From positions 1 to 64,000 of the forward strand of contig JAGTRB010000008.1 of the NCBI GenBank assembly GCA_018396865.1: 64,000 nt of DNA. Direction: 5' to 3'. Below the pieces are notes generated by a model. The model did no database searches and was not told the DNA's origin. It was given only the letters and a program-made list of their open reading frames with translations. Position 1 is the stretch's first letter; each line of letters starts with the position of its first letter. This DNA is from Candidatus Bathyarchaeota archaeon (GTDB lineage: Archaea > Thermoproteota > Bathyarchaeia > TCS64). This document shows positions 33,528 to 58,144 of the stretch, in pieces. A program made the position numbers and the translations under genes.

Positions 33528-33530
33528 TGC

Positions 33531-36691: not shown

Positions 36692-36692
36692 A

Positions 36693-39711: not shown

Positions 39712-41198
39712 GCTCTTCCCTCCAATAATTCTAAAACGGTTCTCATCATTGGATCAAGAATGAATCTCGGATATATCCCTATAATTATAGATAGGACGCT
39801 GAATATGATCAATGGTATTGTCATCTTAGCCGGAGCTTCCTTCATGTCCCTCAGATGCTCAGGGGTAGGGCCGAAGAATATACGCCTCACCGTCCATAGG
39901 GTGTAGGCTATTGTGAGAGCCGTTGAGATTAAGGCGGCTAGAGATATGCTCAGCTCAAGCCACGAGGATTGTAGGCCCCGCTCGAAGGCCCCCGAGAAGA
40001 CCAGAAGCTTGGATATGAAGCCAACTGTTGGTGGTATCCCAGCTATATTCATGCATCCTATCAGGAAAGCCGTGGCTGAGATGGGCATCCTCCCAGCTAG
40101 GCCCCCCAGGGACCTGATATCACGGATGCCGCTTCTATACATCACGGTGCCAGCCGTTAGGAAGAGGACAGCCTTGCCCAGCCCGTGGCTTATATAGTGT
40201 AGCATGGCTCCAGATACTCCAAGGGGCATTGAACTGGCTATTCCTACGAGGATATAGCCCATCTGGCTTATGCTAGAGTATGCCAGCAGCCTCTTTATAT
40301 CGTTCTGAGCCAAGACCATAAGACCTCCGTAGAGCATTGTAAAGAAAGCCCATAGGAATACTGGCCAGTAAAGGCTCTGGAAGGCGCTTTGGATCGGGAT
40401 TATTAGCCTCACAATGGCATACGCGGCTAGTCCTATCATGGCTGGGCTAAGGAGGGCCGAGATTGATGTGGGAGCCTCCGCGTGGGCGTAGGGAAGCCAG
40501 ATGTGGAGGCCGAAGACGGCCATCTTAATGAAGAAGCCTAAAAGCATCATCAGCATGACAAAAGTGGCTAGGGGATTGCCATTGAGCCTCTTCAATTCAG
40601 AGATCTCGAAGCTGTGGATGGTGGCATATGTGGTGAGGGCTCCAGTTACGAATAGCACCGCGCCGACTATAGACCAGAGGAGGTACATGAGGGCGATCTT
40701 CTCCCTCTCCCCATACCCATAGATGTTTATCAAGGCCCATGAGGGGATTATCATCAACTCGAAGAAGAGGTAGAACTCGAAGAGGTTGGTCGCTAGGACC
40801 ACCCCCATCATGCTGGTGGCATAGGCTAGGTAGAGGGAGTAGTAGGTGGCATAGGCCTTTTTATTCTCTTCATGGTACTCCTCATGGATTCTATGCTCCA
40901 TATAAGGTTGAGAGTATATTATGATGATTGTGCAGAGAAGGGCAACGGTTAGGACGATAGGCAGACTCAACCCGTCTAGAAGAAGGCCAAACCTTATCTC
41001 AGGCAGCCAGAAGAAATATTCGCTTAATGGAGATACTGCAACCCTAGGCATAATGATTATGAAGAAGATTGTGCTATAGAGCAATGGAAGCAATGCCATC
41101 CAACCAACATACCTCCCAATTTTGCGGCCGGCCGTGTAAACTATTGGCATGAACACCGCCGGAGCTAAGACAGCCAACCAAGCGGATGGGTACATCAT
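39708..41198 (-). CDS. nuoM: Complex I antiporter-like subunit NuoM
   Basis: A 496-residue membrane subunit, NuoM-like: FYLFFELMIIPSWALINIYG with the key Glu, FFIKMAVFGLHIWLPYAHAE with the key Lys, and SYSSISQMGYILVG-type text (AYSSISQMGYILVG). The helix-8 lysine position is Gly (IGLAAYAIVR), and the helix-12 position, Glu in bacterial NuoM, is Lys (FISKLLVFSG). ATG at 41198 follows GGAGGGAGGG; a GTG at 41216 is in frame. Preceded by a gap of 180 bases after nuoL, so a separate promoter is possible. Confidence 0.88.
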   Translation of the reverse strand: MMYPSAWLAVLAPAVFMPIVYTAGRKIGRYVGWMALLPLLYSTIFFIIIMPRVAVSPLSEYFFWLPEIRFGLLLDGLSLPIVLTVALLCTIIIIYSQPYMEHRIHEEYHEENKKAYATYYSLYLAYATSMMGVVLATNLFEFYLFFELMIIPSWALINIYGYGEREKIALMYLLWSIVGAVLFVTGALTTYATIHSFEISELKRLNGNPLATFVMLMMLLGFFIKMAVFGLHIWLPYAHAEAPTSISALLSPAMIGLAAYAIVRLIIPIQSAFQSLYWPVFLWAFFTMLYGGLMVLAQNDIKRLLAYSSISQMGYILVGIASSMPLGVSGAMLHYISHGLGKAVLFLTAGTVMYRSGIRDIRSLGGLAGRMPISATAFLIGCMNIAGIPPTVGFISKLLVFSGAFERGLQSSWLELSISLAALISTALTIAYTLWTVRRIFFGPTPEHLRDMKEAPAKMTIPLIIFSVLSIIIGIYPRFILDPMMRTVLELLEGRA

Positions 41199-41378
41199 CC
41201 CTCCCTCCTGGGCCACAAGCCCATCTCAAAGATCTCTAAGAGGCGGTAAGGGGACTTTATGAAAACAGGAATAATCCTGCAATTATTGAATCTTCTAGAA
41301 GTAGCAAAGTAGTAGGATGGAGAATAGGTTATTGAATGGAGGAAAAGATAAAGAATAGTAGTTTTGAGCATCATTGAA

Positions 41379-43685: not shown

Positions 43686-43753
43686 TCATCCAACCTCCTG
43701 AGGATATCCTTCCCCTTTCCATACACACTCTATAAAGGATTTACGATCTCTCA

Positions 43754-45274
43754 TCAGCCTATCACTGCCCCTATGTAGTTCTCGATACCCTCCACTAGGG
43801 CTCTAGAGGCTTCATTTGCGTACCTCAAGGCGGGCTCAGGCCATACTCCTAGAAGGATGATGAGCACAGCCATGAACATGGTGACCGATACCATCAGGGG
43901 TGGTGCCTCCTTGACCTTCAACCCAGCCCCAGGCTTAGATATAAGGGCCTTCATCACCCTGAGGTAGTAGGCCATGCTGAAGGCGCTATTGAGGACGCCT
44001 GCCACAGCCAACCATGACGCCCCAACGAGAATGGCCGAGTTGAAGAGGATGAACTTGCTTACGAAACCATTTGTGGAGGGTACGCCTCCAAGGCCGAGCA
44101 GGGAGATGAAGAGGGTCAGGGTTGAGAGAGGCATCATCCTCCCCACCCCTCTGAGATCCTCTATATCCCTCGTCTCAGCCTCATGGACTATGGAGCCAGA
44201 GGCTAGGAATGCCAGGCCCTTCATCAGGGAGTGGTTGAAGACATGAAGGAAGGTCCCCATAACCCCATAGGATGTCCCTGATGCCACTCCTATGAGCATG
44301 TAACCCATCTGGGCTATGCTGGAGTAGGCCAGTAGCCTCTTTATATCCCTCTGGAGGAGGGCCCAGATGTTGGCCATAGTCATAGTCAATACGGCGAGGG
44401 CTGAGAGGGGTATATGGAAGAATTCCGGGGTGAAGATGAGGTATAACACCCTAGTCAGCCCGTATAGGCCCGTCTCAATGACGATCCCTGAGAGCATCGC
44501 GCTTATAGGGCTGGGGGCCTCTGGATGGGCATCTGGTAGCCAAGTATGGAGGGGAACAATGGCCGATTTAACCCCGAAGCCCACTATCAGGCAACTGAAA
44601 AGGATCATCAGCCAGGGTGTTGGTGGAGACCCCCTTAGGCCTAGGGAGAGCTGGGCGAAGTTCAGGGTTCCGGTCATCCCGTAGATGAAGGACATGCTCA
44701 GGAGTAGGAAGGCGCCTGCAGAGGCGCTCATGAGTAGGTATTTGAAGCCCGCCTCTATAGGGGCCCACCTCTCCTTCATGAAGGCAACCAGGACATAGCT
44801 TGACAGGCTCATCATCTCCCAGAAGACGAATAGGGTGAAGAAGTCCCCAGCCATCGCGACACCAGTCATCCCCGCCATCATGAAGAGGAGGAGCGTGTAA
44901 TACTCGTTAAGGCGGCCTATCCGTTCCATGTAGCTGAAGGAGTATATGGCGACCAGTAGTCCTAGGAAGGCCACACTCCAGACCATGAATAGGCTTAGGG
45001 CATCAACCTCGAAGCAGCTCCCTAAGAGTGGTGTCGGGCCCCAAGGGGTTATAAGGAGAATCCCATCAGGCTTGGCTCCGAGCTGCTGGAGGAGGGGATA
45101 GACGGATATTAGGGCTAGGGATGAGACTAGGACTACCCATATCTCCCTCAGCCTCCTCGCTCCCAGCCTCTCCCCCAAGAGGCCTAGGAATGGAGTGGCC
45201 AAAGCTCCGATGAGGAGAGTGAATAATGGAGCTGGAAGCTGTATTGCTTGGTTTAATGGCCATTCCGCTACCAT
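43754..45274 (-). CDS. nuoN: Complex I antiporter-like subunit NuoN
   Basis: A 506-residue membrane subunit. LFVFWEMMSLSSYVLVAFMK and IEAGFKYLLMSASAGAFLLL are typical of NuoN/MrpD-type subunits. GFGVKSAIVPLHTWLPDAHP holds the helix-7 Lys and GFVSKFILFN the helix-12 Lys. At helix 8 the usual Lys is Glu (IVIETGLYGLTR). Its start overlaps the nuoK stop by 7 bases. It might instead be called NuoM by gene order; motifs favour NuoN. Confidence 0.85.
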   Translation of the reverse strand: MVAEWPLNQAIQLPAPLFTLLIGALATPFLGLLGERLGARRLREIWVVLVSSLALISVYPLLQQLGAKPDGILLITPWGPTPLLGSCFEVDALSLFMVWSVAFLGLLVAIYSFSYMERIGRLNEYYTLLLFMMAGMTGVAMAGDFFTLFVFWEMMSLSSYVLVAFMKERWAPIEAGFKYLLMSASAGAFLLLSMSFIYGMTGTLNFAQLSLGLRGSPPTPWLMILFSCLIVGFGVKSAIVPLHTWLPDAHPEAPSPISAMLSGIVIETGLYGLTRVLYLIFTPEFFHIPLSALAVLTMTMANIWALLQRDIKRLLAYSSIAQMGYMLIGVASGTSYGVMGTFLHVFNHSLMKGLAFLASGSIVHEAETRDIEDLRGVGRMMPLSTLTLFISLLGLGGVPSTNGFVSKFILFNSAILVGASWLAVAGVLNSAFSMAYYLRVMKALISKPGAGLKVKEAPPLMVSVTMFMAVLIILLGVWPEPALRYANEASRALVEGIENYIGAVIG

Positions 45275-45579
45275 CTTAACCGCCTCAGCCTCCTCACATC
45301 GACTGTTCTATAATGCCTGTAGACATTCAGGGTCATGGCCAACCCAACAGCTATGACAGCCCCATCTAGGACTATGGCCATCATGACAACAGACTGGGCC
45401 AAGGGATCCACGAAGCCCTCGACCTGGGCTGAGAGGGCTATGAAGTTCAGGTTGGCAGCGTTAAAAAGGATCTCTATACCCATCAATAGGCGTATCATAT
45501 CCCTCCTCATCATCATGCATCCCAGGCCTATGGCCATAAGCAGGACAGTTGACACGATGAATGGCTGATATGGGATCAT
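45268..45579 (-). CDS. nuoK: Complex I subunit NuoK
   Basis: A 103-residue protein with three membrane helices. LLMGIEILFNAANLNFIAL contains the conserved intramembrane Glu, and VMMAIVLDGAVIAVGLAMTL the third helix (Asp instead of the usual first Glu of AIVLxAAE). The ATG at 45579 overlaps the preceding stop (ATGA), which favours it over a longer frame reaching back to 45681. Confidence 0.9.
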   Translation of the reverse strand: MIPYQPFIVSTVLLMAIGLGCMMMRRDMIRLLMGIEILFNAANLNFIALSAQVEGFVDPLAQSVVMMAIVLDGAVIAVGLAMTLNVYRHYRTVDVRRLRRLRW

Positions 45580-45872
45580 GGCCCCCCTGCCTCCTCGGGC
45601 TTCAGAAGGGCTAGGCAGCAGATTATGGCCACGACTATGACGAAGGCTTGCATGGTCACATCGAGGGCCCTGTTCTCCCATAAGAACCTGCTGACCCCTT
45701 GGGATATACCCTCGAATGGTTGGATTGGTATTAGGCGCCTAGAGACGATCCCAAGAGCGTATCTGAGGGTTGGGAAGGGCTCTGCTAGGATAAGCGTAGA
45801 GAAGAGGTAAATTATGCAGAGCACTATAACGGCCGCTAGGGCTGAGCCTAGATCTAAGCCCTTCCTCCTCAT
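45576..45872 (-). CDS. nuoJ2: Complex I subunit NuoJ, C-terminal half (split)
   Basis: A 98-residue protein with two membrane helices (LGSALAAVIVLCIIYLFSTL, AFVIVVAIICCLALLKPEEA). It lies where the C-terminal part of NuoJ belongs. Together with the 85-residue ORF before it, it restores a NuoJ of normal helix count. A split J subunit is also known from Methanosarcina Fpo. Starts and stops overlap (4 bases) on both sides. Confidence 0.75.
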   Translation of the reverse strand: MRRKGLDLGSALAAVIVLCIIYLFSTLILAEPFPTLRYALGIVSRRLIPIQPFEGISQGVSRFLWENRALDVTMQAFVIVVAIICCLALLKPEEAGGP

Positions 45873-46126
45873 TCCTCAGCCTCCTCGACCTCCATCTCTC
45901 CTCCCCTCGTCAGCATAACCGTGATTATGAAGAAGACGACGATCGCCCCTGCGAAGATGGCGAGCTGGAATAGGGAGGCCATCGGTGCTCCAACTATATA
46001 GTAAATTATTCCTAGCAGTATGTTTGTGCATAGAAGAAAGATCACGCCATAGACTATGTTTGGATCAGAGACTGCGAGTAATGCTGAGAGAACAGTAAGA
46101 GATAACAATATTATTAGCTCTATCAT
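45869..46126 (-). CDS. nuoJ1: Complex I subunit NuoJ, N-terminal half (split)
   Basis: An 85-residue protein with three membrane helices. NIVYGVIFLLCTNILLGIIY and AIFAGAIVVFFIITVMLTRG match the first half of NuoJ, including the AGAIVVFFIITVML pi-bulge segment. It ends with an acidic tail instead of running on. The overlapping next frame supplies the rest. Confidence 0.85.
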   Translation of the reverse strand: MIELIILLSLTVLSALLAVSDPNIVYGVIFLLCTNILLGIIYYIVGAPMASLFQLAIFAGAIVVFFIITVMLTRGGEMEVEEAEE

Positions 46127-46590
46127 AGCTCTTCGACCTTCCTGTACTTCATCTCAGACTCGGTTAAATAGGGCTCTATTCTCCTCTTCAACCTCGGGAC
46201 AACCTCCTTTATATCTGGGACATGGGAGAGCATCTCAGGCGTGTAGATAAGCCTCCCTCTCTCCATGCTTGAGAACTCGACAAGATCTGTAAACTCTAAG
46301 GCCTTTGTTGGGCAGAACTCCACGCAGAACCCGCAGAGGCTGCATGTGCCGTAATCTATCCTAGGATACTTTCCTTCCCTCCCCTCCGCCTCCACTAGGA
46401 GGATGGAGCTGCAGGGGCAGATCCTGGCGCAGGTTCCGCAATGGATGCATCGATCCAGGTGGAGCTTGTGGCGCCCCCTAAACCTGGGGGAGAAGACGAG
46501 CCTCTCATCCGGATATGCAACAGTCTGGGATTTCCTTAGGACCTTAGGGGCGACGACCATAAAGGGCTTGAGGATCTTCGCAAGGCTCAA
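46123..46590 (-). CDS. nuoI: Complex I subunit NuoI
   Basis: A 155-residue peripheral subunit with two [4Fe-4S] sites: C48, C51, C54, C58 and C83, C86, C89, C93 (RCIHCGTCARICPC; TCSLCGFCVEFCPT). It passes electrons to the N2 cluster of NuoB. RGRHKLHLDRC is the usual lead-in. It is the entry point for electrons here, since NuoE, F and G are missing. Overlaps nuoJ1 by 4 bases. Confidence 0.95.
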   Translation of the reverse strand: MSLAKILKPFMVVAPKVLRKSQTVAYPDERLVFSPRFRGRHKLHLDRCIHCGTCARICPCSSILLVEAEGREGKYPRIDYGTCSLCGFCVEFCPTKALEFTDLVEFSSMERGRLIYTPEMLSHVPDIKEVVPRLKRRIEPYLTESEMKYRKVEEL

Positions 46591-47718
46591 CTAGAATATC
46601 CCCCCCAGTTTTAAGGCTAGCGTTATGAAGAGGTTTAAGATGGATAGGGGCATTAGGTAGTACCAGCCCAGCCGGAGTAGCTGGTCCATCCTAAACCTCG
46701 GGAAGACCCCCCTTATCAATATGACTATGGGGACTAGGATTGCTAGCTTAAATAAAATCCAGAAGATGTGGCTGTATAGGGGGAGGCCGAATATATTTGG
46801 GCCGTTATACCCTCCAAGGTAGAGGGTTATGAAGAGGAGGGCCCAGGCCAGGAAGCTCACATACTCAGCCATCATGGTGAATCCGAAGAGGATCCCACTG
46901 AACTCGGTCCTCCATCCCAGGACGAGCTCGACCTCCGCCGTGGGAATATCAAATGGGGTCCTCTCCGCCTCAATTATCAGCCCCAAGAAGAATATTATGA
47001 AGCCTATGAACTGTGGAACTGAAAACCAAATGGTTGACTGGGCCTCAACTATCCTCACCAGATCGAAGCTCCCAGCCATGATGGCGACAGCGGCGGCGCA
47101 TAAGACCAAAGGTATCTCAGCCGAGATGTAGAGGAAGGCGGTCCTGAGGCTCCCTATAATAGTGTACTTATTATTGGCGGCCCATCCGGCGAACACGGGG
47201 ATCAGGGGTGAGAAACCGGCTATCGCAAAGAACATGGGCAGGCTTAGGCCTCCAGCCCTGAATAGGACCCAGTCTAGGTCGAAGGGAATTAGGGTGATCG
47301 CAAGGGCTGGGATGGTCGGCAGGATGACGGGCATAGACACGAAGAGGGCCCTATGAGCATCTTTAGGAATTACTATCTCCTTGAGGAAGAGCTTCAAGAA
47401 GTCCGCGATGAGCTGGAGAACCCCTGATCTCCCCCCACAGTAGTAGGGGCCGACCCTTAGCATCGCCCTCGCGAGGAACTTCCTCTCAAACCATACGACA
47501 ATGATGGCGAAGAGGAGGATGAAAGCTAGGCCAGGGATAACGATGATCTGGGTCAGGGGCTTCAGGTTGAACAAGACCAACCTCAATAACAAGCTGGGCG
47601 ATTCAAGTATCATCCCCGAGATGATGTCAAGGATGTCGAGAATCGATCCCAGGGAGATCCCTATGAGCTCCTGAATAGAGACTAAGGCCACACCCCACAA
47701 ATAGGTAGATGTGATCAT
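46591..47718 (-). CDS. nuoH: Complex I subunit NuoH
   Basis: A 375-residue membrane subunit that forms part of the quinone chamber. ERKFLARAMLRVGPYYCGGR, FLKLFLKEIVIP, AERTPFDIPTAEVELVLGW and FRMDQLLRLGWYYLMPL are hallmark motifs. I chose the ATG at 47718, which follows GGGAGGTTGAG. A longer in-frame ATG at 47757 lies inside nuoD. The ion-path acidic residues of the cytosolic loops are present. Confidence 0.94.
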   Translation of the reverse strand: MITSTYLWGVALVSIQELIGISLGSILDILDIISGMILESPSLLLRLVLFNLKPLTQIIVIPGLAFILLFAIIVVWFERKFLARAMLRVGPYYCGGRSGVLQLIADFLKLFLKEIVIPKDAHRALFVSMPVILPTIPALAITLIPFDLDWVLFRAGGLSLPMFFAIAGFSPLIPVFAGWAANNKYTIIGSLRTAFLYISAEIPLVLCAAAVAIMAGSFDLVRIVEAQSTIWFSVPQFIGFIIFFLGLIIEAERTPFDIPTAEVELVLGWRTEFSGILFGFTMMAEYVSFLAWALLFITLYLGGYNGPNIFGLPLYSHIFWILFKLAILVPIVILIRGVFPRFRMDQLLRLGWYYLMPLSILNLFITLALKLGGIF

Positions 47719-47732
47719 CTCAACCTCCCTCT

Positions 47733-48848
47733 TCACCTGTCGCAGTCGAGATACCATGGATCTATGGAATTTATTACCACTGGGACATCGGCTACTAGAA
47801 TCCTATTAAGCTCCGCCAATCTCTCGAAGACGAACATATTCCTGAGGGATGGGGAGTTTATCTTCACCCTGTAGGGGTTCATGCCACCATCGGTGAACAG
47901 ATGGATCCCCAGCTCTCCCCTCGCGGTCTCGACCCTGCTTAGGAACTCCCCAGGCTTAGGCCTCGGGAAGAGGGGGATCTTAACCCTGACCGGGCCTCCA
48001 GGTATTTCACTTGCTACCTGTTCTATCATATTTAGGCTCTGCTCAATCTCGTGGAACCTAACTTTAAGCCTGGCCATGGCATCCCCATCAGTTTCTGTTA
48101 TCACCTTGAAGTCGAGATCGCCGTAGGCCGCGTAGGGCTCGTCCTTCCTGATATCCATGTCGACTCCAGATCCCCTTAGGACTGGCCCGGTGGCCCCAAG
48201 CCTGATGGCGTCTTCTTTTCTCAGGACGGCGACGCCGACACACCTCATCTCGAAGACCGCGTTCTCCACCATCGCCTCCCAATACTGCTGGAATCTTCCC
48301 CTTAGATAGTTGACCGCCTCCCTCACCTTCTCCTGGAAGCCCTCTGGGAGGTCGTTCATAACCCCGCCGGGGATTATGAAGTTGTAGCTCCACCTAGCCC
48401 CCGTCAGCCTCTCCAATAGGTCTAGGAGGACTTCTCTATCTATGGTTGTCCACAAGAACACGGCTGGGAAGTAGCCCGTGGACTCGGCTTGAAGGCCGAA
48501 GGCGTATAAGTGGCTGTTGATCCTGCACATCTCACAGATCATCGACCTTATCCAGTTGGCCCTCTCTGGGGGCTCTATGCCTAAGGCCTCCTCGACCGCT
48601 AGAACATAGCCCAAACCTATGTTGGCTGTGTCCACCATTGCCATCCTCTCTATGGGGACCAGGCCCTGTAGGAAGGTTCTATTCTCGAGGATCTTCTCTA
48701 TCCCTCTATGTGTGAAGCCCAAGTCTGCGATGAGCCTGTGGACCACCTCCCCGTCGACATCTATGAGGATCCTGGTCTGGCCGCTCATGGGGTGCTGGGG
48801 ACCCCAGCTTATCCTCATTATCTCAGGCTCTAATTGGGGCTCGCTCAA
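47733..48848 (-). CDS. nuoD: Complex I 49-kDa type subunit NuoD
   Basis: A 371-residue subunit of the quinone site. GFTHRGIEKILENRTFLQGL and the C-terminal NSIDPWYLDCDR are typical. The cysteine pairs that bind Ni-Fe in hydrogenases are absent (the RICGIC position reads PIERMAM), so this is a quinone-type, not a hydrogenase-type, subunit. The stop lies past the chosen start of nuoH, giving close packing. Overlaps nuoC by 4 bases. Confidence 0.95.
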   Translation of the reverse strand: MSEPQLEPEIMRISWGPQHPMSGQTRILIDVDGEVVHRLIADLGFTHRGIEKILENRTFLQGLVPIERMAMVDTANIGLGYVLAVEEALGIEPPERANWIRSMICEMCRINSHLYAFGLQAESTGYFPAVFLWTTIDREVLLDLLERLTGARWSYNFIIPGGVMNDLPEGFQEKVREAVNYLRGRFQQYWEAMVENAVFEMRCVGVAVLRKEDAIRLGATGPVLRGSGVDMDIRKDEPYAAYGDLDFKVITETDGDAMARLKVRFHEIEQSLNMIEQVASEIPGGPVRVKIPLFPRPKPGEFLSRVETARGELGIHLFTDGGMNPYRVKINSPSLRNMFVFERLAELNRILVADVPVVINSIDPWYLDCDR

Positions 48849-49315
48849 ACCCTGGCCTCCTCTCCTTTGAAGTCCTTCCTAAGGGGGTATCCTCCCCTCC
48901 AGTCCGGGGGGAGGAGAAGGTGGACTGGGTTTGGATGGCCTTCGAATACGACGCCGAACATCTCCATGGTCTCCCTCTCGTGGAAGTTCATGGCCTCCCA
49001 GACCCTGGTCATAGAGGGGATCTTCGGCTCGTCTCTTGGGAGGTCAACCCTCAGAGTTAGGATGAACCTCTTAGAGGGATTGGTCAGGTAGTAGATCACC
49101 TGAATCTTCCCTTCCTTGGGATAGTCTACGGCTCCGGCGGATATTGGGTGGATGAAGCCATATTCGTTCCTCAATACCTCTGCAAGCCTCTCCAGATGCT
49201 CCCTTCTGGCGAGGATGGAGACCCTTCTGGGCCTTAGAACCCTTGCCTCCTCTACCAGTTCTGGGTGGGCCTTCTTTATGGCCTCCACGAGGGCAATCTC
49301 ATCCCCTTCTCGCAC
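48845..49315 (-). CDS. nuoC: Complex I 30-kDa type subunit NuoC
   Basis: A 156-residue soluble subunit. MNFHERETMEMFGVVFEGHP and HLLLPPDWRGGYPLRKDFKG form the signature. It is separate from NuoD, not fused to it. It overlaps the end of nuoB by 17 bases. Confidence 0.94.
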   Translation of the reverse strand: MREGDEIALVEAIKKAHPELVEEARVLRPRRVSILARREHLERLAEVLRNEYGFIHPISAGAVDYPKEGKIQVIYYLTNPSKRFILTLRVDLPRDEPKIPSMTRVWEAMNFHERETMEMFGVVFEGHPNPVHLLLPPDWRGGYPLRKDFKGEEARV

Positions 49316-49802
49316 CTATCTTGACCTCCCTCTTGATCTTCTCCTGTAAGAGCATCATACCCTGGATTATGGCTTCCGGCCTGGGTGGACAGCCCGGGAT
49401 ATACACATCCACTGGGACTATCTCGTCAGCCCTCACAACCGAGTATGAGTCGTGGAAGGGGCCTTTTCCCGTCGGGCAGGCGCCCACGGAGACGACGTAT
49501 TTCGGCTCCCCCATCTGGTCGTAGAGGTACTTGACCCTCTCCCCCATCTTCCTAGAGATGACGCCGACTATCATTATGCAGTCGCATTGGCGGACGCTGG
49601 CGAAGGGTAGGATACCGAGCCTCTCCATATCGAAGCGGGATCCCGAGACCTGCATGAACTCAGGGCTGCAGCACCCCGTCACAAAGTGTATCGGCCAGAT
49701 TGAGAACTTTCTAGCCCAGCCCGCTATATACTCTACAACATCGTATATGGGTTTAGGTATATAGTACTTATCGAAGATTCGCTCCTTGATCGTCGTCTCC
49801 AA
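49299..49802 (-). CDS. nuoB: Complex I N2-cluster subunit NuoB
   Basis: A 167-residue subunit that carries the N2 [4Fe-4S] cluster next to the quinone. Ligands are C44, C45, C109 and C138 (TGCCSPEF, GACPTGKG, GCPPRPEA). IMIVGVISRKMGERV is typical. Directly follows nuoA (stop and start abut). Confidence 0.96.
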   Translation of the reverse strand: METTIKERIFDKYYIPKPIYDVVEYIAGWARKFSIWPIHFVTGCCSPEFMQVSGSRFDMERLGILPFASVRQCDCIMIVGVISRKMGERVKYLYDQMGEPKYVVSVGACPTGKGPFHDSYSVVRADEIVPVDVYIPGCPPRPEAIIQGMMLLQEKIKREVKIGARRG

Positions 49803-50171
49803 TTACCTCACCGCCTCCCTAAGCTCGTGGAGGAAGTAGCCCACTCCCACAAGGACGATGAGGATGTATAACGATGAGATTGCCATGGCCTCAGGCCTGC
49901 TTGAGATGGACATGGCCGAGGTCAGAATCATCCATGAGAAGGCGTCGAGGGCAAAGAAGACAACAGCGTAGCCGAAGTAGCGGACTGCACCTGTTATCCT
50001 GAAGTCAAGAGCCCTCCCGAAAGGGGTTTGACCACACTCATAAATATTCTCCTTTATGGGATTTGGCTTTATAGGCCCTATCAACCGTGCAATGATGATA
50101 GCGATGGATAAGAAGGCGACAAAGATAGCAGCGAAGAGCCAGAAGGCGATATAATCGCCTAGGTAAATCAT
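49803..50171 (-). CDS. nuoA: Complex I subunit NuoA
   Basis: A 122-residue membrane subunit with three helices and the loop motif IYECGQTPFGRA, whose Cys is the conserved quinone-site residue. ATG at 50171 after GGAAGGGG. First gene of the A-B-C-D-H-I-J1-J2-K-N-L-M-M cluster. Confidence 0.94.
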   Translation of the reverse strand: MIYLGDYIAFWLFAAIFVAFLSIAIIIARLIGPIKPNPIKENIYECGQTPFGRALDFRITGAVRYFGYAVVFFALDAFSWMILTSAMSISSRPEAMAISSLYILIVLVGVGYFLHELREAVR

Positions 50172-50610: not shown

Positions 50611-51393
50611 TTATTTTTGTTTCACTTTATTTTTTATCCATATTCCGATCAAGATCGAGAGTTCATATAAGAGATAGAAGGGTATTGATATGAGAAGCAT
50701 GCTTAGGGGTGTCGGATCCGGTGTGATGATGGCTGTAACTATTAAAAGGCCGACGAGGATATAACCCCTGTTCTTCCTCAGAATCTCAGGATCAATTACC
50801 TCCATTTTCACTAGAAAGGCTATGAAAAGCGGGAGGGTGAAGAAGAGGCCTGATCCAACGATGCCGATGAAGACCATTTCGAAGAAGTCTTTCATGGCGA
50901 AATGGGGGATTGCCCCGAGGCTGTATACGAACCTCATCAGTGTTTTGAAGGTTATTGGGAGCAGGATTAAGCAGGCGTAGGCGGCTCCTCCGATGAATAG
51001 GATGGAGAATGAGATCATAAATGTTATAAGCGCTCTTCTCTCATGTGATAGGAGGGCGGGACTCAAAAATTTATAGAACTCAAATGCTATAACAGGGGTG
51101 GAGACCAGCGTCCCTAAAGCGATGGCTATTAGAACATATACATAAAATGTATCTACCCAGTTTAGGGCTATAAGGTTAACATCTCTAGGGAGCATCATGT
51201 CTTGAATTATTTCTATTATTAGAGAGAGGAGGGGTTTATAATCTGAGAGGCTTGGATTATTGATGAAATTTAAGTCGGCTGGGAAAAAAGATATCAAAAC
51301 AGAAGAGATGAAAATCGAGAGAAGGGATACTCTCAATCTCCTTGCCAGTTCCTCCAAGTGATCCCATAATGGTAGCTCAGCGTCCTTTGACAT
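50611..51393 (-). CDS. tatC: Twin-arginine translocase subunit TatC
   Basis: A 260-residue protein with six membrane helices. LPLWDHLEELARRLRVSLLS contains the conserved signal-recognition residues, and the loop FYKFLSPALLSHERRALITF the conserved Pro/Glu. It recognises twin-arginine signals such as the one on the dehydrogenase encoded upstream. Long extracellular first loop. 44 bases after tatA. Confidence 0.95.
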   Translation of the reverse strand: MSKDAELPLWDHLEELARRLRVSLLSIFISSVLISFFPADLNFINNPSLSDYKPLLSLIIEIIQDMMLPRDVNLIALNWVDTFYVYVLIAIALGTLVSTPVIAFEFYKFLSPALLSHERRALITFMISFSILFIGGAAYACLILLPITFKTLMRFVYSLGAIPHFAMKDFFEMVFIGIVGSGLFFTLPLFIAFLVKMEVIDPEILRKNRGYILVGLLIVTAIITPDPTPLSMLLISIPFYLLYELSILIGIWIKNKVKQK

Positions 51394-51437: not shown

Positions 51438-51755
51438 TCACTTCTTCATCTCTTCGGCTTTGGATATATCCAGCATGATCTCCTTTAGGCTTCTACCCTC
51501 GGTCTCGATCCCCAGCTTCTTAGCGGTCTCCAGGATAGCCTTCCTCAGTTCCTCATCTGTCTGCGCTTTCCCCTTTGTCTCTTCCTCGCTCGCCTCCTCA
51601 CTAGCCCCACTCATAGCCTTCTGATACTCTCTTACCGCTCTCCCCAGAGATCTGGCAAGCTCCGGTAGCTTCCTACCTCCGAAGAGAAGAAGGACTATAA
51701 ATAAGATGATGAGGAGCTCCCCGGTGCCAATGCCACCTAGCAATCTATCGCTCAC
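51438..51755 (-). CDS. tatA: Twin-arginine translocase subunit TatA
   Basis: A 105-residue protein: one N-terminal membrane helix (GTGELLIILFIVLLLFGGRK), an amphipathic helix (LPELARSLGRAVREYQKAM) and a charged tail. I prefer the GTG at 51755, because it puts the helix near the N-terminus as TatA requires and a TATA-like TTAAATATC lies just ahead (near 51772-51781). The longer frame from TTG 51812 adds 19 unusual residues. TatA forms the pore that TatC recruits. Confidence 0.88.
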   Translation of the reverse strand: MSDRLLGGIGTGELLIILFIVLLLFGGRKLPELARSLGRAVREYQKAMSGASEEASEEETKGKAQTDEELRKAILETAKKLGIETEGRSLKEIMLDISKAEEMKK

Positions 51756-51908
51756 CTTACTACTCTCTGAGTCGATATTTAAGGCCTGACTATTTAAGGA
51801 TTGCCCCAACAATAAAAAGAAACTTGATAATCACTTCAACCAATCTCTCTGGTTGGTTTAATATATACCAATTTAGCATCAATAGTGTAATATTAAAAAG
51901 ATGGGGGA

Positions 51909-52808
51909 TTATAGCTGACCTGCAATGAGAACTACATATCTCAGTATAAAGCCACCTATGAGAACTAGAATAAAACTAACAAGAGATCCGAAAACTATAG
52001 TATTTTCTTCTACAGATTTTATATGGCTATATAGGCTGAGAGCAAGATGTACAAGTAGACCGATCACTAAGTACATCCAGAAGAGTGTTGATAGATTCCC
52101 TAATATTAAGGCGAATGAGCCATTAGTACTCCATACTGTTCCAATGAAAAGTGCTACAACTATGATCTCAAGTAATGTTGGAACAATTGAATATTCCTCT
52201 ATAGATTTGAACATCTGTGATACCTCAGACCTTTGCTCAAAGAACTCTGGAAAGCTTCGATCTAACCTCGGCATGATTTTTGCAATTATCGGAATACCCA
52301 CAACAGCCAAACCTAGACCAGTTAGAATTCCAGAGACTGTGAAGAGCCAAGGCAGGAAGGGTGAACTCCAGAAGGGTCTTCCTCTAGCATAGGAGAGGAG
52401 TATACCAGTGTATGCGGTTGTTGAGAAACCTAAAACTATTCCGAGGATCTCAAGAAACTTTCTCAGAAGTCTGTTTCCATTCATGAGCCAGATGATAGTT
52501 GTCGATAGTGATATTATGGTAAAGGCAGATATTATCCAAGTACCAACGGACATTATTGACACCGGAAAATGTATGTAGGCGTTAAGGACACTGAATGGAG
52601 CTACAGTTAATCGTTTAAGATCGAGGATAAGGAAGATTAGCCCAGCAAGGATCGAGATGAGGCTTGTGTATACTCCAGACTTTGCTAGAACCTTGTATCT
52701 GTCTTTTCCAAAGAGATCTGACCATGCACCAATGACATAGGCTCCACCCGCCATTCCACCCAGGAATAGATAGGCAGCTATTAATATTCCCCAGACCGGT
52801 TCAGACAT
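51909..52808 (-). CDS. nrfD: NrfD/PsrC-type membrane subunit of the formate dehydrogenase
   Basis: A 299-residue membrane protein with about eight to nine helices. The N-terminal AAYLFLGGMAGGAYVIGAWS is the NrfD signature, and YTGILLSYARGRPFWSSPFL lies in the middle. Such subunits pass electrons between a peripheral FeS subunit and the quinone pool, without heme. It replaces the cytochrome b (FdnI) that E. coli uses. One base after the FeS subunit gene, so clearly the same operon. Confidence 0.9.
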   Translation of the reverse strand: MSEPVWGILIAAYLFLGGMAGGAYVIGAWSDLFGKDRYKVLAKSGVYTSLISILAGLIFLILDLKRLTVAPFSVLNAYIHFPVSIMSVGTWIISAFTIISLSTTIIWLMNGNRLLRKFLEILGIVLGFSTTAYTGILLSYARGRPFWSSPFLPWLFTVSGILTGLGLAVVGIPIIAKIMPRLDRSFPEFFEQRSEVSQMFKSIEEYSIVPTLLEIIVVALFIGTVWSTNGSFALILGNLSTLFWMYLVIGLLVHLALSLYSHIKSVEENTIVFGSLVSFILVLIGGFILRYVVLIAGQL

Positions 52809-52809
52809 A

Positions 52810-53583
52810 TCAGTTCCCCTCCCTCTTAGTTTCTTCTAGTTTACTCCTCCTCTTTGAGTATAGCCATAGTCCTCCTAAAGCTATTAAGCCTACAGCTCCT
52901 ATTATCGAGACGTTTTCCAGCATTCTTAGGTTGAAGGCTGTTGGGGTTTCTGAACCGACCTTTGAAAATCCAAGCTCTGTGAAGGGGACTTCTGAGATAT
53001 AGATCCAGGAGGTTCCACCCGCCTCATAAAGCCCATAGGTGTACAGCCCTTTAGCCTCAGCCTCTTTAGCCTTCCTTCTAGCCTCTTCTAGATCCATTAA
53101 GACGAGGGTATCCGTTGGGCATGCCTGGACACATGCTGGTTCCAAGCCTTCAGTCAGCCTCTCCGAGCAGAATGTGCACTTCTCTATGGTCTTGTTCTCC
53201 TCATCGAACTTAGGAACATTGAAGGGGCATGCATTTATACAGTAGCCGCATCCTATGCATAACTCCTTCCTGTAGATTACAGGTCCCTCCTTGGTCTTTA
53301 TCAGGGCTGTAGTGGGGCAGGCAGTGGCGCATCCCGGCTCGATACAGTGGTTACATTGAACCTTGGCGAAGACCCATTTGAGCGATTCCCCCTTCCCAAG
53401 CTTGACGAACTTGACATAGGTGTAGGTCTGAGGTGAGAATTCAGAGGGGTTCGTCCACTCAAACTTCGGATCGGGATTATGCTTGGTTGCCGTCACTCCA
53501 CGGTCGTTCCAGCGTTTACATGCCACCTGACAAGATCTGCAGCCTATGCATCTCCTCAAATCAACTAGAACCGCCTTAGCCAT
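52810..53583 (-). CDS. fdnH: Four-cluster ferredoxin subunit of the formate dehydrogenase (FdnH-like)
   Basis: A 257-residue electron-transfer subunit with four [4Fe-4S] motifs: CIGCRSCQVACKRWN, CNHCIEPGCATACPT, CIGCGYCINACPFN, and CTFC with CVQACPTDT. A C-terminal membrane helix (VSIIGAVGLIALGGLWLYSK) anchors it, as in FdnH. It has no signal of its own, so it probably travels by Tat with the catalytic subunit. 10 bases after fdnG. Confidence 0.93.
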   Translation of the reverse strand: MAKAVLVDLRRCIGCRSCQVACKRWNDRGVTATKHNPDPKFEWTNPSEFSPQTYTYVKFVKLGKGESLKWVFAKVQCNHCIEPGCATACPTTALIKTKEGPVIYRKELCIGCGYCINACPFNVPKFDEENKTIEKCTFCSERLTEGLEPACVQACPTDTLVLMDLEEARRKAKEAEAKGLYTYGLYEAGGTSWIYISEVPFTELGFSKVGSETPTAFNLRMLENVSIIGAVGLIALGGLWLYSKRRSKLEETKREGN

Positions 53584-53593
53584 CTCTCATCAC

Positions 53594-56491
53594 CTAATCT
53601 TTCACAATGTTGCAGAGGCATGTCTTATACTCTGGGATGTTAGCCGCTATGTCGACGGTGTCTATGGTCAGCTCGTTTGCGCTTGGCCCGGTGCTCAACC
53701 CCTTGAATCCCCAGTGCCATGGCATTGCAACTACGTGGACATCCCTCCCGTTGACCTTCACAGGAAGAAGGCGCTCAGTTATGTTGACCTTCACCCTTAT
53801 CCCCTCAGGTTTCCTAGCTGTCTTGACCCTGACATAGTCGCCGTTCTTTACCCCGATCTGGGCTGCCAGCTGGGGGCTTATCTCCACGAACATCTCTGGA
53901 TGGGCCTCAACGAGCCAGGGGATGTTGCGTGTCATAGCTCCTGCCTGCATATGCTCAGCAAGCCTGAACGTCGTCATGACATATGGATAATCCTCTGGTT
54001 TACCTATAGCCACGGGGAAGCGTTCATCCCATAGTGTGGGATACCTCTTTGCAAGCTCCCCATCCGGGCTCTCGGCTGGCTCGTTGTGAAGGGGAATTCC
54101 ATATCGGTATGGATGCCACTCAGGCTTAGAGGGGTCGTATAGAGGCCTAGACCATATCGCGGCCCTGTCTAAACCAAGCCATGTATCCTTATCATGGGCC
54201 CACCATACGAAGAAGGTCTTCACCCCTGCGGGGTCCTCATCGATGTCGTAGAGGATCCTCTGATTGAGCATCCAACTCCAAGCCCAATTCTTATATAGGC
54301 CGTACTTTGCATCCCGAGCATTAACGGGCCTCGGGTCGCGCCTCTTAGCTAGAACCCCTCCGACATCGGGCCTCAGCGTCCCATCCCATGCTCCCCTATA
54401 GATGACATTGGCCCAGAGGGTGGGATGGCCTATCTCTTTGTATACAGCCTCAGCGGTCTCCCCAAGCTCGGCCTTCCATATAGTTGGCCAAGAGGAGTCT
54501 ACCCTTGATGGAAGACCATACGGCGAGAGCTCGGAAGGCGTCTTGAAGCCCTTCGCCCTTATCTTCTTGAAGAGCTGGGTTACGAACCAAAGCTCATCCA
54601 TGCACTCTCCTGGTGGTTCTGCGGCCTTCCAGTGCCACTGAACCCAGCGGCCTGTGTTGGTTACGCTCCCTTCCCTCTCAGCCCTTGTGGTCCCTGGAAG
54701 GACTATGTCGGCGAAGTGGGCCGTCTCTGTCTCGAAGATCTCGTTTACGACGACAAAGACGCCGGGCTTGCTCAGAGCCTCCCTGACTAGGTTAGCATTA
54801 GCATTGGATACCGCAGGGTTCTCACCGACTATCACAGCTACCTTGATCTTCCCATCTAGTATCGCTCTGAAGAGCTGGGTTGTGGCGTTTCCCGTCCCTA
54901 TCGGCATATCGCAGATAACAGGCTCATTATCGGGGTCTTTTCCTGGATAAGTTCCTATATGCATCCCCCAGTTGAACTCAAGGTTCTTCCACGTCGGAAA
55001 GTGCCTATCATCCCAACGCTCCTCTATCTTGTCGGCGGGCTTATAGGTGACGCCCCCCTCAACCCCTCCAGGCCTATTCGCGGGATCTGAGTTCTTCCAT
55101 TTCTGATAGCGCCTCACATCATACAGGTTTCTCGGGGGGGCTCGATATCCCATGATGACGTGGGACAGCAGGTTCATATCAGTTGAGCCCTGGACATTGC
55201 TGATTCCTCGAAGGGCGTTGATGCCTCCTCCCGGCCTACCCATGTTACCGAGGAGGAGCTGAAGGATCGCTTGTGCTCTTATGGCTTGAGTTGCATTTGT
55301 GTGCTGGGTCGTCCCCATGGCATAGTAGATGTTGCCGGGCTTGTTACGGAAGAATGCCTCAGCTATCTCCCTTAGCTTCTCCGCCCTCAGACCGGATATC
55401 CTTTCAACCTCACTGGGAGTATAGCTTGCGACTAGGTTCTTGAGCTTGCTGAAGATGGAGTTGGGGTTGTCCATCCAGTCAGCTAGGAAGTTCCCATCAA
55501 GGTCGTATGGGGCATTGGTCCTCTTCTCTACAAACTCTCTGTCGATGTACTGGGGCATCTCGTAGAGGAGTAGGTGGATTAGGCCCAAGAATATAGCTGC
55601 CTCAGCCCCTGACCTGTACTTGGCGTATATATCGGCCTTCGAAGAGGTTCTATTATACCTAGGATCGAGGTTTATTATAATGGCGCCCCTATCTTTAGCC
55701 TCCATAACCCACCTGAACTCCATGGTGTGGCTCTCAGCCGGGTTGCTGACTATCAAGAAACTCTTCGAGTTCTTTGCGTCTATAATGTGATTGGTCATCG
55801 CCCCGAAGCCAAAGGTGTTTGCGAGGGCCACCACAGTTGAGGCATGGCATTTACGAGCCTGGTGCTCAACATTCAATGATCCCAGGAGGGAGATCATCTT
55901 CTTGGCCAGATAGCACTCCTCGTTGCTCCAATAGGAAGAACCGTGCCACATAACGGGGGAATCCTTCCCAACCCAGTAGTAGTTTCGAACAGTTTTGCCG
56001 CCCAGGGTCTCCTCATGCTCGTATCTTTGACTTTTTATCGCATCGACTATCTTCTCTGCTATGATCTCGAGGGCCTGATCCCAAGAGATATAGACCCATC
56101 GAGGGTCCTCATTTACACCCTTCTTAGGGTTTGTCCTCATCATGGGTCTGGTGATGCGGCGTTTGCTGTTAACCAGTTCAATATATGCTGCGAGCTTGCT
56201 GCAGGTCGCCCCTTGGTTAATTGGGTGGTATGGATCCCCCTCGGCTTCAATAACCTTTCCGTTAAGAGATGTTAATATCACCCCGCAACCCCCCGCACAG
56301 TAGACGCATATTGAGGGGACCCTCCTACCCCTCTTGTACATTTTCAGTTTTTGCTCTCCTAGGGTCTCAGAGAAGGTCTGAGCACCGAGGATCGGCTCAA
56401 TCTTCGTTAAGCTCAATATCATGGGTACAGAGGCACAAAGCTTCAGGAAATCCCTTCGACTCGTCTTTAAGGTGGTCATCTCCGATGACAT
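53594..56491 (-). CDS. fdnG: Molybdopterin formate dehydrogenase catalytic subunit, FdnG-like, Tat-exported, Cys in place of Sec
   Basis: A 965-residue oxidoreductase. A twin-arginine signal (TSRRDFLKLCASVPMILSL) at the N-terminus indicates export in folded form. A [4Fe-4S] site is at C62, C65, C69 and C97. The metal ligand is C215 in NVEHQARKCHASTV followed by His, where E. coli FdnG has selenocysteine. FGFGAMTNHIIDAKN and the C-terminal molybdopterin dinucleotide domain (FRLAEHMQAGAMTRNIPWL) match FdnG. The ATG at 56491 follows a Shine-Dalgarno-like GGAG and a TATA box at 56528-56539; the longer frame from 56521 is less likely. It oxidises formate to CO2 outside the membrane. The metal (Mo or W) is unknown. 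Confidence 0.93.
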   Translation of the reverse strand: MSSEMTTLKTSRRDFLKLCASVPMILSLTKIEPILGAQTFSETLGEQKLKMYKRGRRVPSICVYCAGGCGVILTSLNGKVIEAEGDPYHPINQGATCSKLAAYIELVNSKRRITRPMMRTNPKKGVNEDPRWVYISWDQALEIIAEKIVDAIKSQRYEHEETLGGKTVRNYYWVGKDSPVMWHGSSYWSNEECYLAKKMISLLGSLNVEHQARKCHASTVVALANTFGFGAMTNHIIDAKNSKSFLIVSNPAESHTMEFRWVMEAKDRGAIIINLDPRYNRTSSKADIYAKYRSGAEAAIFLGLIHLLLYEMPQYIDREFVEKRTNAPYDLDGNFLADWMDNPNSIFSKLKNLVASYTPSEVERISGLRAEKLREIAEAFFRNKPGNIYYAMGTTQHTNATQAIRAQAILQLLLGNMGRPGGGINALRGISNVQGSTDMNLLSHVIMGYRAPPRNLYDVRRYQKWKNSDPANRPGGVEGGVTYKPADKIEERWDDRHFPTWKNLEFNWGMHIGTYPGKDPDNEPVICDMPIGTGNATTQLFRAILDGKIKVAVIVGENPAVSNANANLVREALSKPGVFVVVNEIFETETAHFADIVLPGTTRAEREGSVTNTGRWVQWHWKAAEPPGECMDELWFVTQLFKKIRAKGFKTPSELSPYGLPSRVDSSWPTIWKAELGETAEAVYKEIGHPTLWANVIYRGAWDGTLRPDVGGVLAKRRDPRPVNARDAKYGLYKNWAWSWMLNQRILYDIDEDPAGVKTFFVWWAHDKDTWLGLDRAAIWSRPLYDPSKPEWHPYRYGIPLHNEPAESPDGELAKRYPTLWDERFPVAIGKPEDYPYVMTTFRLAEHMQAGAMTRNIPWLVEAHPEMFVEISPQLAAQIGVKNGDYVRVKTARKPEGIRVKVNITERLLPVKVNGRDVHVVAMPWHWGFKGLSTGPSANELTIDTVDIAANIPEYKTCLCNIVKD

Positions 56492-56527
56492 CTTAGAATT
56501 CTCCTTTCCCCCTTCTTCCAAGTCAGA

Positions 56528-56731: not shown

Positions 56732-57592
56732 TTGGCCAGACCCGAAATCAGAAAACAGATGCTTGAACTAGACTCCGCCTGCAGGGATTTCCCAAGGCAC
56801 CTAGAATCCTTAAGGATTCAGGTTGGGATTTTAGAGATACTCACCCCATTATATGAATCTCCTAAAAGGGGGGCTAGGAAAACCTTAAGTGATATGGATT
56901 TGAAAACCCTCCAGGAGAAGGCAGCCAACTCAAAGATGCCTATCAATGAATTCCTAGAGGCCTCCTTCTTTGACGAGGCTACGTTCTTGACCTTCGCTGA
57001 AAGGATAGCTGAATATTTGAGAGATAGGCATTTATGGGAGGATAAATTGGAGGGAGTTCTGAAAGCCTTAAAACTTGGCGAGATCGATGCTTATGAGGCT
57101 CTGAGAGCCGTTGTTGAAGAGGATGGTGATTGGTTTAAAGAACTAAGCGTTAAGCTGAACTCCGATGCCCCCTTACTTTTATTCTTGTTCGAAACACCGC
57201 TACGCCCCTTCTATGAGGATTTGGCGAGGAGGGTAGAGAGAGAATTCAGAGAGACATGGTGGGAGGCTCTATGCCCCATCTGTGGAAGGCTTCCCCCCGC
57301 GGCGAGAATTAGAGATGGAAAACGTTATGTTGTATGTTCCTATTGTGGTGCTGAATATTTGATTGACTTATTCTTATGCGTAAATTGTGGGAATAGAGAT
57401 CCATATACCTTGGGATTCATCGTTTTTGATGGCCTTCCAGAGTACGAGTTAAACTATTGTGAAAAATGTAATCATTATATCAAGATCATCCATGAAAGCC
57501 GGTTAAAGAAGAGAATACCTGAGGGACTTGAAGATCTTCTCACAAGTGAATTGGATGCTCTCGCTAAAGACATTGGACTTAAACATTTATAA
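56732..57592 (+). CDS. fdhE: Formate dehydrogenase accessory protein FdhE
   Basis: A 286-residue maturation factor. The C-terminal part has four CxxC pairs: C181/C184, C202/C205, C216/C219, C243/C246 (LCPICGRLPP, VCSYCGAEYL, CVNCGNRDPY, YCEKCNHYIK), the rubredoxin-like iron sites of FdhE. It starts at TTG 56732. Its divergent position beside fdnG supports the assignment of that gene as a formate dehydrogenase rather than another molybdoenzyme. FdhE is needed for activity of exported formate dehydrogenases in E. coli. Confidence 0.9.
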   Translation: MARPEIRKQMLELDSACRDFPRHLESLRIQVGILEILTPLYESPKRGARKTLSDMDLKTLQEKAANSKMPINEFLEASFFDEATFLTFAERIAEYLRDRHLWEDKLEGVLKALKLGEIDAYEALRAVVEEDGDWFKELSVKLNSDAPLLLFLFETPLRPFYEDLARRVEREFRETWWEALCPICGRLPPAARIRDGKRYVVCSYCGAEYLIDLFLCVNCGNRDPYTLGFIVFDGLPEYELNYCEKCNHYIKIIHESRLKKRIPEGLEDLLTSELDALAKDIGLKHL

Positions 57593-57601: not shown

Positions 57602-58144
57602 CTATCCCCAAGGTATCTCTTCCCTTTTCTTATTTATTATAAAATCTTCTCTTTTTTCTTCTCCATTCCGGACTTCAACTATCTTCATCTCATCCTCATA
57701 TTCAACGAGTGAGACCCAGAGGGTATACTGACCAGGTGGAAGATGAGTGAACTCATAATATCCATCGAATGGATTGATGGGCGTATATCTATTCAGGGAG
57801 GGATGGCTCATATATACTGAGCCTCCGGTCTTAATCGGCTCCCAAGTCGATCCATCCAATACATACCCGAATATTTTGCTATCTCCCTCCCTTGGCTCCA
57901 GATGGAAGTCCAACACGACCGTTTCTTCTTCTCTCAGAATCTCTATATGATGCTTCTGTGTTTTATATCTCTCAACAGCAACCTCAACTATGTGGTGGCC
58001 GATCGGTAATCCATCGAACTTGTAGGATCCATCGAAGAGGGTTTTAGTCTCTTCTCCATCGCAGGTGACCGTCACCCCAGCGATAGGCCTTCCTTCCTCA
58101 TCGAATACCCGCCCTGTTATTTCACGCTTACCCTTCACGTCCAT
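57602..58144 (-). CDS. Protein of two carboxypeptidase-regulatory-like beta-sandwich repeats
   Basis: A 180-residue protein. Two similar units are visible: TGRVFDEEGRPIAGVTVTCD followed by FDGSYKFDGLPIGHHIVEV, and IFGYVLDGSTWEPIKTGGSV followed by FDGYYEFTHLPPGQYTLWVS. This is the CarboxypepD_reg fold, usually found in secreted or surface proteins. Here there is no signal peptide or membrane helix, so it seems cytoplasmic unless exported by another route. Function unknown. It ends 10 bases from fdhE, convergent with it. Confidence 0.8.
   Translation of the reverse strand: MDVKGKREITGRVFDEEGRPIAGVTVTCDGEETKTLFDGSYKFDGLPIGHHIVEVAVERYKTQKHHIEILREEETVVLDFHLEPREGDSKIFGYVLDGSTWEPIKTGGSVYMSHPSLNRYTPINPFDGYYEFTHLPPGQYTLWVSLVEYEDEMKIVEVRNGEEKREDFIINKKREEIPWG

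Follow-up and report, generated by a model that had tools for sequence, protein, structure and literature searches.

The 64,000-nucleotide stretch of DNA analysed here (the window; Candidatus Bathyarchaeota archaeon, assembly GCA_018396865.1, contig JAGTRB010000008.1, positions 1 to 64,000) carries genes for a formate dehydrogenase (FDH) of the FdnG and FdnH type, an NrfD-family membrane protein and the twin-arginine translocation (Tat) proteins TatA and TatC, accompanied by an FdhE-like gene and a gene for a small protein with two transthyretin-like domains. Read from its sequence, the locus likely encodes an FqoABC-like formate:quinone oxidoreductase, seated at the outer face on a heme-free NrfD anchor and served by the transthyretin-like protein as a dedicated partner. 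The FdnGH-NrfD hybrid itself is an already described kind of enzyme and is not new. In the available part of Calisto and Pereira 2021 (PMC8076601), FqoABC is a putative formate:quinone oxidoreductase of FdnGH-like and NrfD-like subunits, itself called uncharacterised and held by 110 species, including nine Crenarchaeota as well as Actinobacteria, Chlorobi, Chloroflexi and Deltaproteobacteria. A literature search for the word FqoABC returned this paper alone. The window shares with FqoABC the FdnGH-like peripheral subunits and the adjacent eight-transmembrane (TM) NrfD-like subunit, and also the quinone-site acid and the TM8 arginine, which were matched via DmsC and not by direct alignment with FqoC; neither Bathyarchaeia nor a transthyretin-like partner is named in the available part of the paper.

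Open reading frames (ORFs) and Pfam matches bore out the run of FdnG, FdnH, NrfD, tatA and tatC that had been reported in an earlier note on this DNA (Molybdopterin, E 1.4e-44, for FdnG; Fer4_11, E 3.1e-25, for FdnH; E 1.8e-28 for NrfD). Pfam, profiles, PDB matches and alignment likewise agree on what the note had said of the two peripheral subunits, namely that they are Fdn-like, with four clusters in FdnH and a Cys ligand in FdnG. The best NCBIfam profile of FdnG was TIGR01553 (formate dehydrogenase N alpha) with 568 bits, as against 198 for NapA, 149 for PhsA and 96 for ArrA, and its 20 best PDB matches were either formate dehydrogenases or, in a CO2 reductase, the subunit that resembles them (434 bits for D. 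gigas 1h0h, 420 for Desulfovibrio and 379 for E. coli FdnG). The protein has cluster-motif cysteines at C72, C75, C79 and C107, and its active-site residues K109, C225, H226 and R438 align with Lys44, Sec140, His141 and Arg333 of E. coli FdhF. Cys225 also aligns with the selenocysteine (Sec) of E. coli FdnG, and the equivalent codon is TGA in seven read-through bacterial relatives and in the gene of Thermomicrobium roseum. All four active-site residues are kept wherever they are covered in the crown clade defined below, the formate-site His and Arg in 16 of 16 rows; this His and Arg are absent from E. coli NapA, DmsA, YnfE, TorA and NarG. The Tat motif TSRRDFLK lies at residues 20-27, and a Tat motif was observed in each of the 14 crown rows with a complete N-terminus, although in four of them it was seen only on reading above the first ATG, GTG or TTG.

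A tree of 45 catalytic subunits, with a midpoint root only and with E. coli DmsA, YnfE, TorA, NarG and NapA included, paired the window FdnG with that of locus L026 (support 100/100) within a group of five Bathyarchaeota sequences with NrfD (98/96). This group is nested in a crown clade of 16 rows (100/99), which is part of an archaeal clade of 18 (100/99); all of these fall in an FdnG assemblage of 37 (99/98). DmsA, YnfE, TorA, NarG and the second molybdopterin enzyme of the genome form a separate part of the tree (96/95), and NapA, FdhF and YdeP fall between the two parts in a poorly supported position. A grouping of the catalytic subunit with non-formate molybdoenzymes, which the note had named as the outcome that would speak against it, was thus not seen with DmsA, YnfE, TorA, NarG and NapA as rows; PhsA and ArrA were compared solely as profiles, and sequences of PsrA, TtrA and ArrA were not among the rows. 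The tree program warned of long branches (YdeP, NarG, NapA, L065 and others), which may be falsely joined. Loci L046, L049 and L052 (partial or short), L006-L025 (short flanks), L071 (partial) and L075-L083 were left out, while L026 lacks part of its N-terminus and L029 seems to be misjoined at its own. Judged by profiles, tree and active-site residues, the enzyme belongs with the respiratory formate dehydrogenases.

Two further observations concern the catalytic subunits. Some Thermoproteota relatives (L066-L070, L073 and L074) have a longer FdnG (1170-1226 aa) that contains an additional segment between the positions of window residues ~761 and 805, and their FdnG neighbours include cytochrome b561-like proteins (Pfam was run on L066 only). 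The second molybdopterin oxidoreductase of the genome (L064:7417-10119; G000 C1 ~148.4-151.1 kb) has 900 aa and its own FdnH-like subunit. It was set aside as a true FDH, since it has the Cys without the formate-site His and Arg and a Tat motif was not found in it; its best NCBIfam model is Fdh-alpha, at 260 of 666 bits, and it may still have a formate role.

The four CxxC motifs that are a hallmark of FdhE are present in the FdhE-like family of the locus, with all eight cysteines invariant in 13 of 13 aligned members. Eleven of the 13 match FdhE_C and 11 match FdhE_central, and a search with the aligned family brought up the FdhE homologue 2fiy (E 5.6e-9). The window copy by itself matches PF24859 just above the cut-off and stays under the TIGR01562 equivalog cut-off (32 of 188 bits). 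An FdhD gene lies on the same contig as the window (C8:72637), and MobA-, MoeB-, HypD- and HypF-like genes sit between it and the window.

NrfD is the sole PF03916 match in the genome. Its hydropathy count of eight TM segments compares with six to eight in its relatives; searched alone against the PDB it had no match, and the aligned family found PsrC and ActC-type chains. D63 aligns with H65 of DmsC and R290 with DmsC R271, residues that are equated with the quinone-site acid D65 and with R293 in TM8 of FqoC in the accessible part of PMC8076601. A di-heme cytochrome b gamma subunit is not present at the locus. The note's statement that cytochrome b had been replaced by NrfD holds insofar as NrfD occupies the place of the gamma subunit; replacement as an event is neither borne out nor refuted by the tree.

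Three kinds of membrane module were observed among the related loci. The NrfD anchor is found in L026, L027, L028, L029 and L041, and a cytochrome b561-type anchor in L030, L032, L036, L037 and L039 (PF01292 matched L032 at E 1.1e-15; the others were assigned by clustering). The third kind, which is unusual for an FDH, occurs in L031, L035 and L038 and consists of a four-TM protein accompanied by a CCG-domain (HdrD-like) and a UbiA protein; the four-TM protein of L035, the one that was searched, had no Pfam match. L033, L034 and L040 were not scored, being at contig ends or having no anchor found, and L042 has no adjacent anchor, with a sub-cut-off PF01292 match 2.8 kb beyond FdnH as the sole candidate. 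Two anchor changes were counted on the tree when the archaeal groups and T. roseum alone were considered, and four when E. coli FdnG/FdoG and seven Thermoproteota rows were scored as cytochrome b (14 cytochrome b, eight NrfD and three four-TM plus CCG rows, with 20 rows ungrouped). Within the archaeal part the earliest branches with a known anchor are L065 and L041, both carrying NrfD, and the rows with cytochrome b sit nested above these; beyond the archaeal clade, cytochrome b is the anchor of E. coli and of most Thermoproteota rows. The idea of NrfD as the older anchor state was withdrawn, since four changes are needed once these outside rows are counted. The clade amounts to a natural experiment, with one catalytic core on three membrane modules, so that heme-free and heme-based coupling can be compared.

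The transthyretin-like protein follows this core. A partner profile (A1) of 12 copies was run on the same 256 genomes of the window's class as FdnG, and matched 11 of them at E<=1e-15: all ten with FdnG at E<=1e-150 and G447, which holds a partial FdnG (1.6e-103) found by following the partner match. The FdnG search ended at E 1e-150 and the other 245 genomes were not rechecked for a weaker FdnG, which counts against the exactness of this pairing. The chance of two sets of 11 in 256 coinciding is ~1.6e-19, a figure that is no true probability because the genomes are related and adjacent genes are not independent. In a draw of 300 genomes from the phylum, the profile matched the window genome, G276 and, weakly, three genomes inside ORFs of 1668-1762 aa that lack the partner's tail; no match was obtained in the 19 other genomes of the draw with an FdnG match at E<=1e-100. 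All seven of the other crown-clade genomes searched (L030, L032, L033, L034, L036, L037 and L039) carry the partner at E<=1e-78, irrespective of the anchor where this could be assigned, and two of them have additional weaker matches in longer ORFs. A full-length partner was not found in the set of 12 made up of L041, L042, eight bacterial loci, G017 and G223; in two of these, parts of longer ORFs matched, at best with E 1.5e-12 and 4.4e-11. Taken together, the partner is present in 18 of 18 crown-clade genomes examined, and a full-length copy in none of 29 with a more distant FdnG (these 12 and 17 of the phylum draw). G355 and G447 were counted in the crown clade by 62-65% identity and not by the tree, and G355, G447 and G467 hold broken FdnG copies. 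A search of plasmids with the window copy gave six records, all weak.

The position of the partner gene varies: it lies beyond FdhE in the window, L027 and L028, after the anchor in L030, L032, L036, L037 and L039, and directly after FdnG in L031, L035, L038, L040 and L052. The tail E-x-x-W-G closes the protein in each of the 19 distinct copies, which come from 18 genomes; these copies had been chosen as ORFs ending in or near WG, and a locus without such an ORF would have been flagged, which none was. Cys28 is invariant; another Cys close to the tail is found in all but three copies, the window copy being one of these. No TM segment was counted by hydropathy. The predicted structure (mean pLDDT 90.3, pTM 0.62) is all beta with 15 strands, and its Foldseek search gave 101 matches at E<=0.001, of which the best 50 are mostly domains of surface proteins, pilins, teneurins and carboxypeptidase D. 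At rank 41 stands 4v4c_B, the small subunit of pyrogallol-phloroglucinol transhydroxylase, which superposes on one partner domain with 26% identity and a root mean square deviation of 2.2 over 81 columns; here a molybdopterin enzyme has a transthyretin-like domain built into its small subunit. It differs from the partner in being one domain inside a subunit and not a free two-domain protein, and in serving another reaction, and by sequence profile its match is without significance (E 0.79). The sequence profile of the partner matched human NOMO2 best (E 2.3e-12), and also 6hif_Y, a hydrazine dehydrogenase assembly factor (3e-4). We treat all these resemblances as leads only, the fold being very common. 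The protein probably serves as a dedicated subunit or as a maturation factor. In a fuller form, the evidence leans towards a previously unrecognised obligate partner of one archaeal Tat-exported FDH clade, acting either as maturation factor or as exported third subunit, which would gate or stabilise the core and would have been retained while the module was switched among NrfD, cytochrome b and the four-TM protein with its CCG (HdrD-like) companion. No literature on the partner together with formate dehydrogenase was found, nor any on Kustc1130 or on Bathyarchaeia formate dehydrogenase with Tat, in searches whose coverage excluded most subscription journals. The constant small partner offers a testable lead on the maturation or cohesion of such enzymes.

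Under the proposed mechanism, FdnG and FdnH would first be put together in the cytoplasm, aided by FdhE and FdhD, then exported by the Tat system, whose motif is observed in FdnG, and seated on NrfD at the outer face. Formate would be oxidised at Cys225, His226 and Arg438, and the electrons would travel through about five 4Fe-4S clusters, the motifs of which are present, to an outer-side quinone site near Asp63 of NrfD. By homology to QrcABCD, protons for the quinol would be taken from the cytoplasm through NrfD, which would render the step electrogenic in the absence of heme b. The small partner of 180 residues would act as a maturation factor or be carried along as a third outer subunit, following the catalytic subunit whatever the anchor. 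In the available part of PMC13059093, QrcD mutants support outer-face quinone reduction with cytoplasmic proton uptake, and QrcABCD of sulfate reducers resembles our proposal in its NrfD-family subunit, its outer quinone site and its cytoplasmic protons; it differs in receiving electrons from cytochrome c3 and in having no formate site of its own.

Several points weigh against this assignment. E. coli YdeP has both the formate-site His and Arg, so these residues are not exclusive to formate dehydrogenases, and at the position of FdhF Gln335, where E. coli FdnG has His, the window enzyme (Ile440) and all 18 archaeal-clade rows have Ile. With 568 bits, FdnG stays short of the equivalog cut-off of TIGR01553, which is 814. 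For FdnH, HmcB is the better-scoring model with 201 bits, as against 179 for the FDH beta model TIGR01582 (equivalog cut-off 335), and both scores are under their cut-offs. FDH activity was not detected for an Ignicoccus complex resembling nitrate reductase and FDH, according to the portion of PMC2614490 available. In the same portion of PMC13059093 as above, the arginine of QrcD equivalent to that of NrfD is dispensable and the equivalent Asp, changed to Ala, keeps ~66% of the activity, while the equivalent residue in PsrC and DmsC is essential; D63 and R290 are accordingly weak evidence for pumping. MqnA and MqnD were not found in the genome, where the classical menaquinone route was not searched for, and the prenyl genes near the locus could serve membrane lipids instead.

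Three other readings of the enzyme have to be considered beside the outer-face formate:quinone oxidoreductase. That it mainly reduces CO2 to formate for the Wood-Ljungdahl pathway seems quite unlikely to us, as the Tat motif and the membrane partner place its site outside the cell, away from the cytoplasmic formate-fixing enzymes, and quinol is in general a weak donor for CO2 unless proton flow is reversed. The genome does contain the acetyl-CoA synthase CdhC, so an acetyl-CoA pathway could still operate, and in the available part of PMC8407382 the fdhA gene of Family-5 of the Bathyarchaeia is given the task of reducing CO2 in a Wood-Ljungdahl pathway of bacterial type. Our genome appears to fit Family-5 as tabulated there (43 contigs, 1.83 Mb and one additional antiporter gene within the complex I operon). 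If it is a member, the exported enzyme described here may be that very fdhA, and the published assignment would be doubtful; an outer-face respiratory enzyme in place of a carbon-fixing one would change the role of formate. Another route is known from Dehalococcoides, where OmeA is reported to have lost its formate activity, and an FdnG-like protein of this sort, or one with another substrate, would suit Ile440 in place of His or Gln and the scores under the equivalog cut-offs. OmeA/HupX/OmeB of D. mccartyi joins a complex iron-sulfur molybdoenzyme (CISM) large subunit to an NrfD protein in the reductive dehalogenation complex, as given in the available part of PMC10772276. We hold this distinctly unlikely for the window, given that the crown clade retains Lys109, Cys225, His226 and Arg438 in all rows that cover these positions, that an FdhE-like gene is adjacent and that FdhD is on the same contig. 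It is very improbable that NrfD hands electrons directly to the neighbouring complex I without a quinone pool: the complex I cluster does follow tatC directly and a search of the genome did not find MqnA/D, but possible quinone genes are nearby, and in the related loci the cytochrome b anchors point to quinone or phenazine as the acceptor.

The transthyretin-like gene might in turn be a neutral neighbour that was inherited with the FDH genes through adjacency. Joint inheritance of neighbours may account for the co-occurrence: in every locus that shows both, the partner gene is at most a few genes away from FdnG, and at this closeness joint transfer would yield the same pattern. We nevertheless regard a neutral neighbour as unlikely, because the gene stays near FdnG across three gene orders and three anchor types, its E-x-x-W-G tail is kept in every copy, and no genome without it was found among the crown-clade genomes examined.

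Comparison with known systems places the window close to E. coli FdnGHI/FdoGHI in its catalytic and four-cluster subunits and Tat motif (FdnG is 35% identical over 875 columns), and there too fdhE adjoins fdoGHI, with fdhD close by. It differs from E. coli FDH-N/O in having no cytochrome b subunit, Cys for Sec and an additional partner protein. The T. roseum fdh operon (L084) is similar in having fdh, 4Fe-4S, nrfD, hypothetical and FdhE genes one after another in this order; its catalytic subunit uses the Sec codon TGA and is 36% identical to that of the window, no CarboxypepD_reg gene is annotated in that stretch, and it is absent from the six plasmid records that weakly match the partner. 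From the Psr, Arr and Dms reductases, which also have an NrfD anchor, the window differs in a catalytic subunit that does not group with DmsA and that scores 568 bits with its own best profile against the PhsA and ArrA values given above. The hybrid had been described as uncommon in archaea. This holds within the class, where FdnG at E<=1e-150 occurs in 10 of 256 genomes, with one partial copy (G447) besides, and does not hold more widely: another Thermoproteota family (G017, L065) has FdhE, FdnG, FdnH and NrfD in that order, and nine crenarchaeal species are on record. As regards the hybrid reading as a whole, the FdnG/FdnH-like FDH, the Cys ligand and NrfD stand; the earlier note covered 51909-56491, and the FdhE-like and transthyretin-like genes lay outside it.

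The features of the locus and its surroundings are collected in the table. Possible quinone genes lie within 8 kb of the FDH genes. Beyond 63939 follows a geranylgeranyl reductase (L063:74-1270), which a subfamily model matches above its curated cut-off, and the UbiE-like, MenA-like, polyprenyl synthase and geranylgeranyl reductase genes stand in a row, possibly as a quinone cluster. The nearby quinone-type, cofactor, complex I and ATP synthase genes suggest quinone-linked respiration.

Table. Features of the window, with positions counted from its first nucleotide
Feature	Coordinates	Strand	Remarks
FdnG-type catalytic subunit	53594..56521	-	975 aa from TTG; alternative in-frame ATG at 56491
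FdnH-type electron-transfer subunit	52810..53583	-	four 4Fe-4S motifs, 16 Cys; hydrophobic C-terminal segment (from sequence)
NrfD-family membrane subunit	51909..52808	-	Pfam PF03916; hydropathy count 8 TM
TatA	51438..51812	-	Pfam TatA_B_E, E 2e-18
TatC	50611..51393	-	Pfam TatC, E 6.6e-45
FdhE-like accessory protein	56732..57592	+	four CxxC motifs; divergent from FdnG gene
FDH-associated protein, two transthyretin-like (CarboxypepD_reg) domains	57602..58144	-	180 residues; Pfam; tail-to-tail with FdhE-like gene
Complex I / Fpo-like cluster	38218..50171	-	directly downstream of tatC; NuoA, NuoK and four antiporter-type subunits by Pfam
UbiE-like methyltransferase	61101-61778	+	possible quinone-biosynthesis gene; NCBIfam score below curated cut-off
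MenA-like UbiA prenyltransferase	61861-62760	-	possible quinone-biosynthesis gene; NCBIfam score below curated cut-off
Polyprenyl diphosphate synthase	62938-63939	+	possible quinone-biosynthesis gene; NCBIfam score below curated cut-off
A-type ATP synthase genes	31882-37337		follow complex I-like cluster
B12-binding radical SAM protein, TIGR04190 family	58338-60050		in the window

The usual number of antiporter-type subunits is three, and the complex I-like cluster has four. Other genes of this cluster we take, from the look of their sequences, to resemble NuoB, C, D, H and I; NuoEFG genes were not noticed in it, although no search was aimed at them. A relative of the TIGR04190 radical SAM protein also adjoins the FDH genes in locus L028. 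In G355 and G467 (L082, L083, L098 and L099), pieces of FdnG lie far apart in single-contig metagenome-assembled genomes (MAGs), with a terminal piece near the transthyretin-like gene, which looks like misjoined assemblies. The window genome is 1.83 Mb in 43 contigs, and its closest named relative in the contig collection searched is the Bathyarchaeota MAG QZM_A1_bin_46, which is 95% identical; QZM-named samples come from Tibetan hot springs, according to the available part of PMC8407382.

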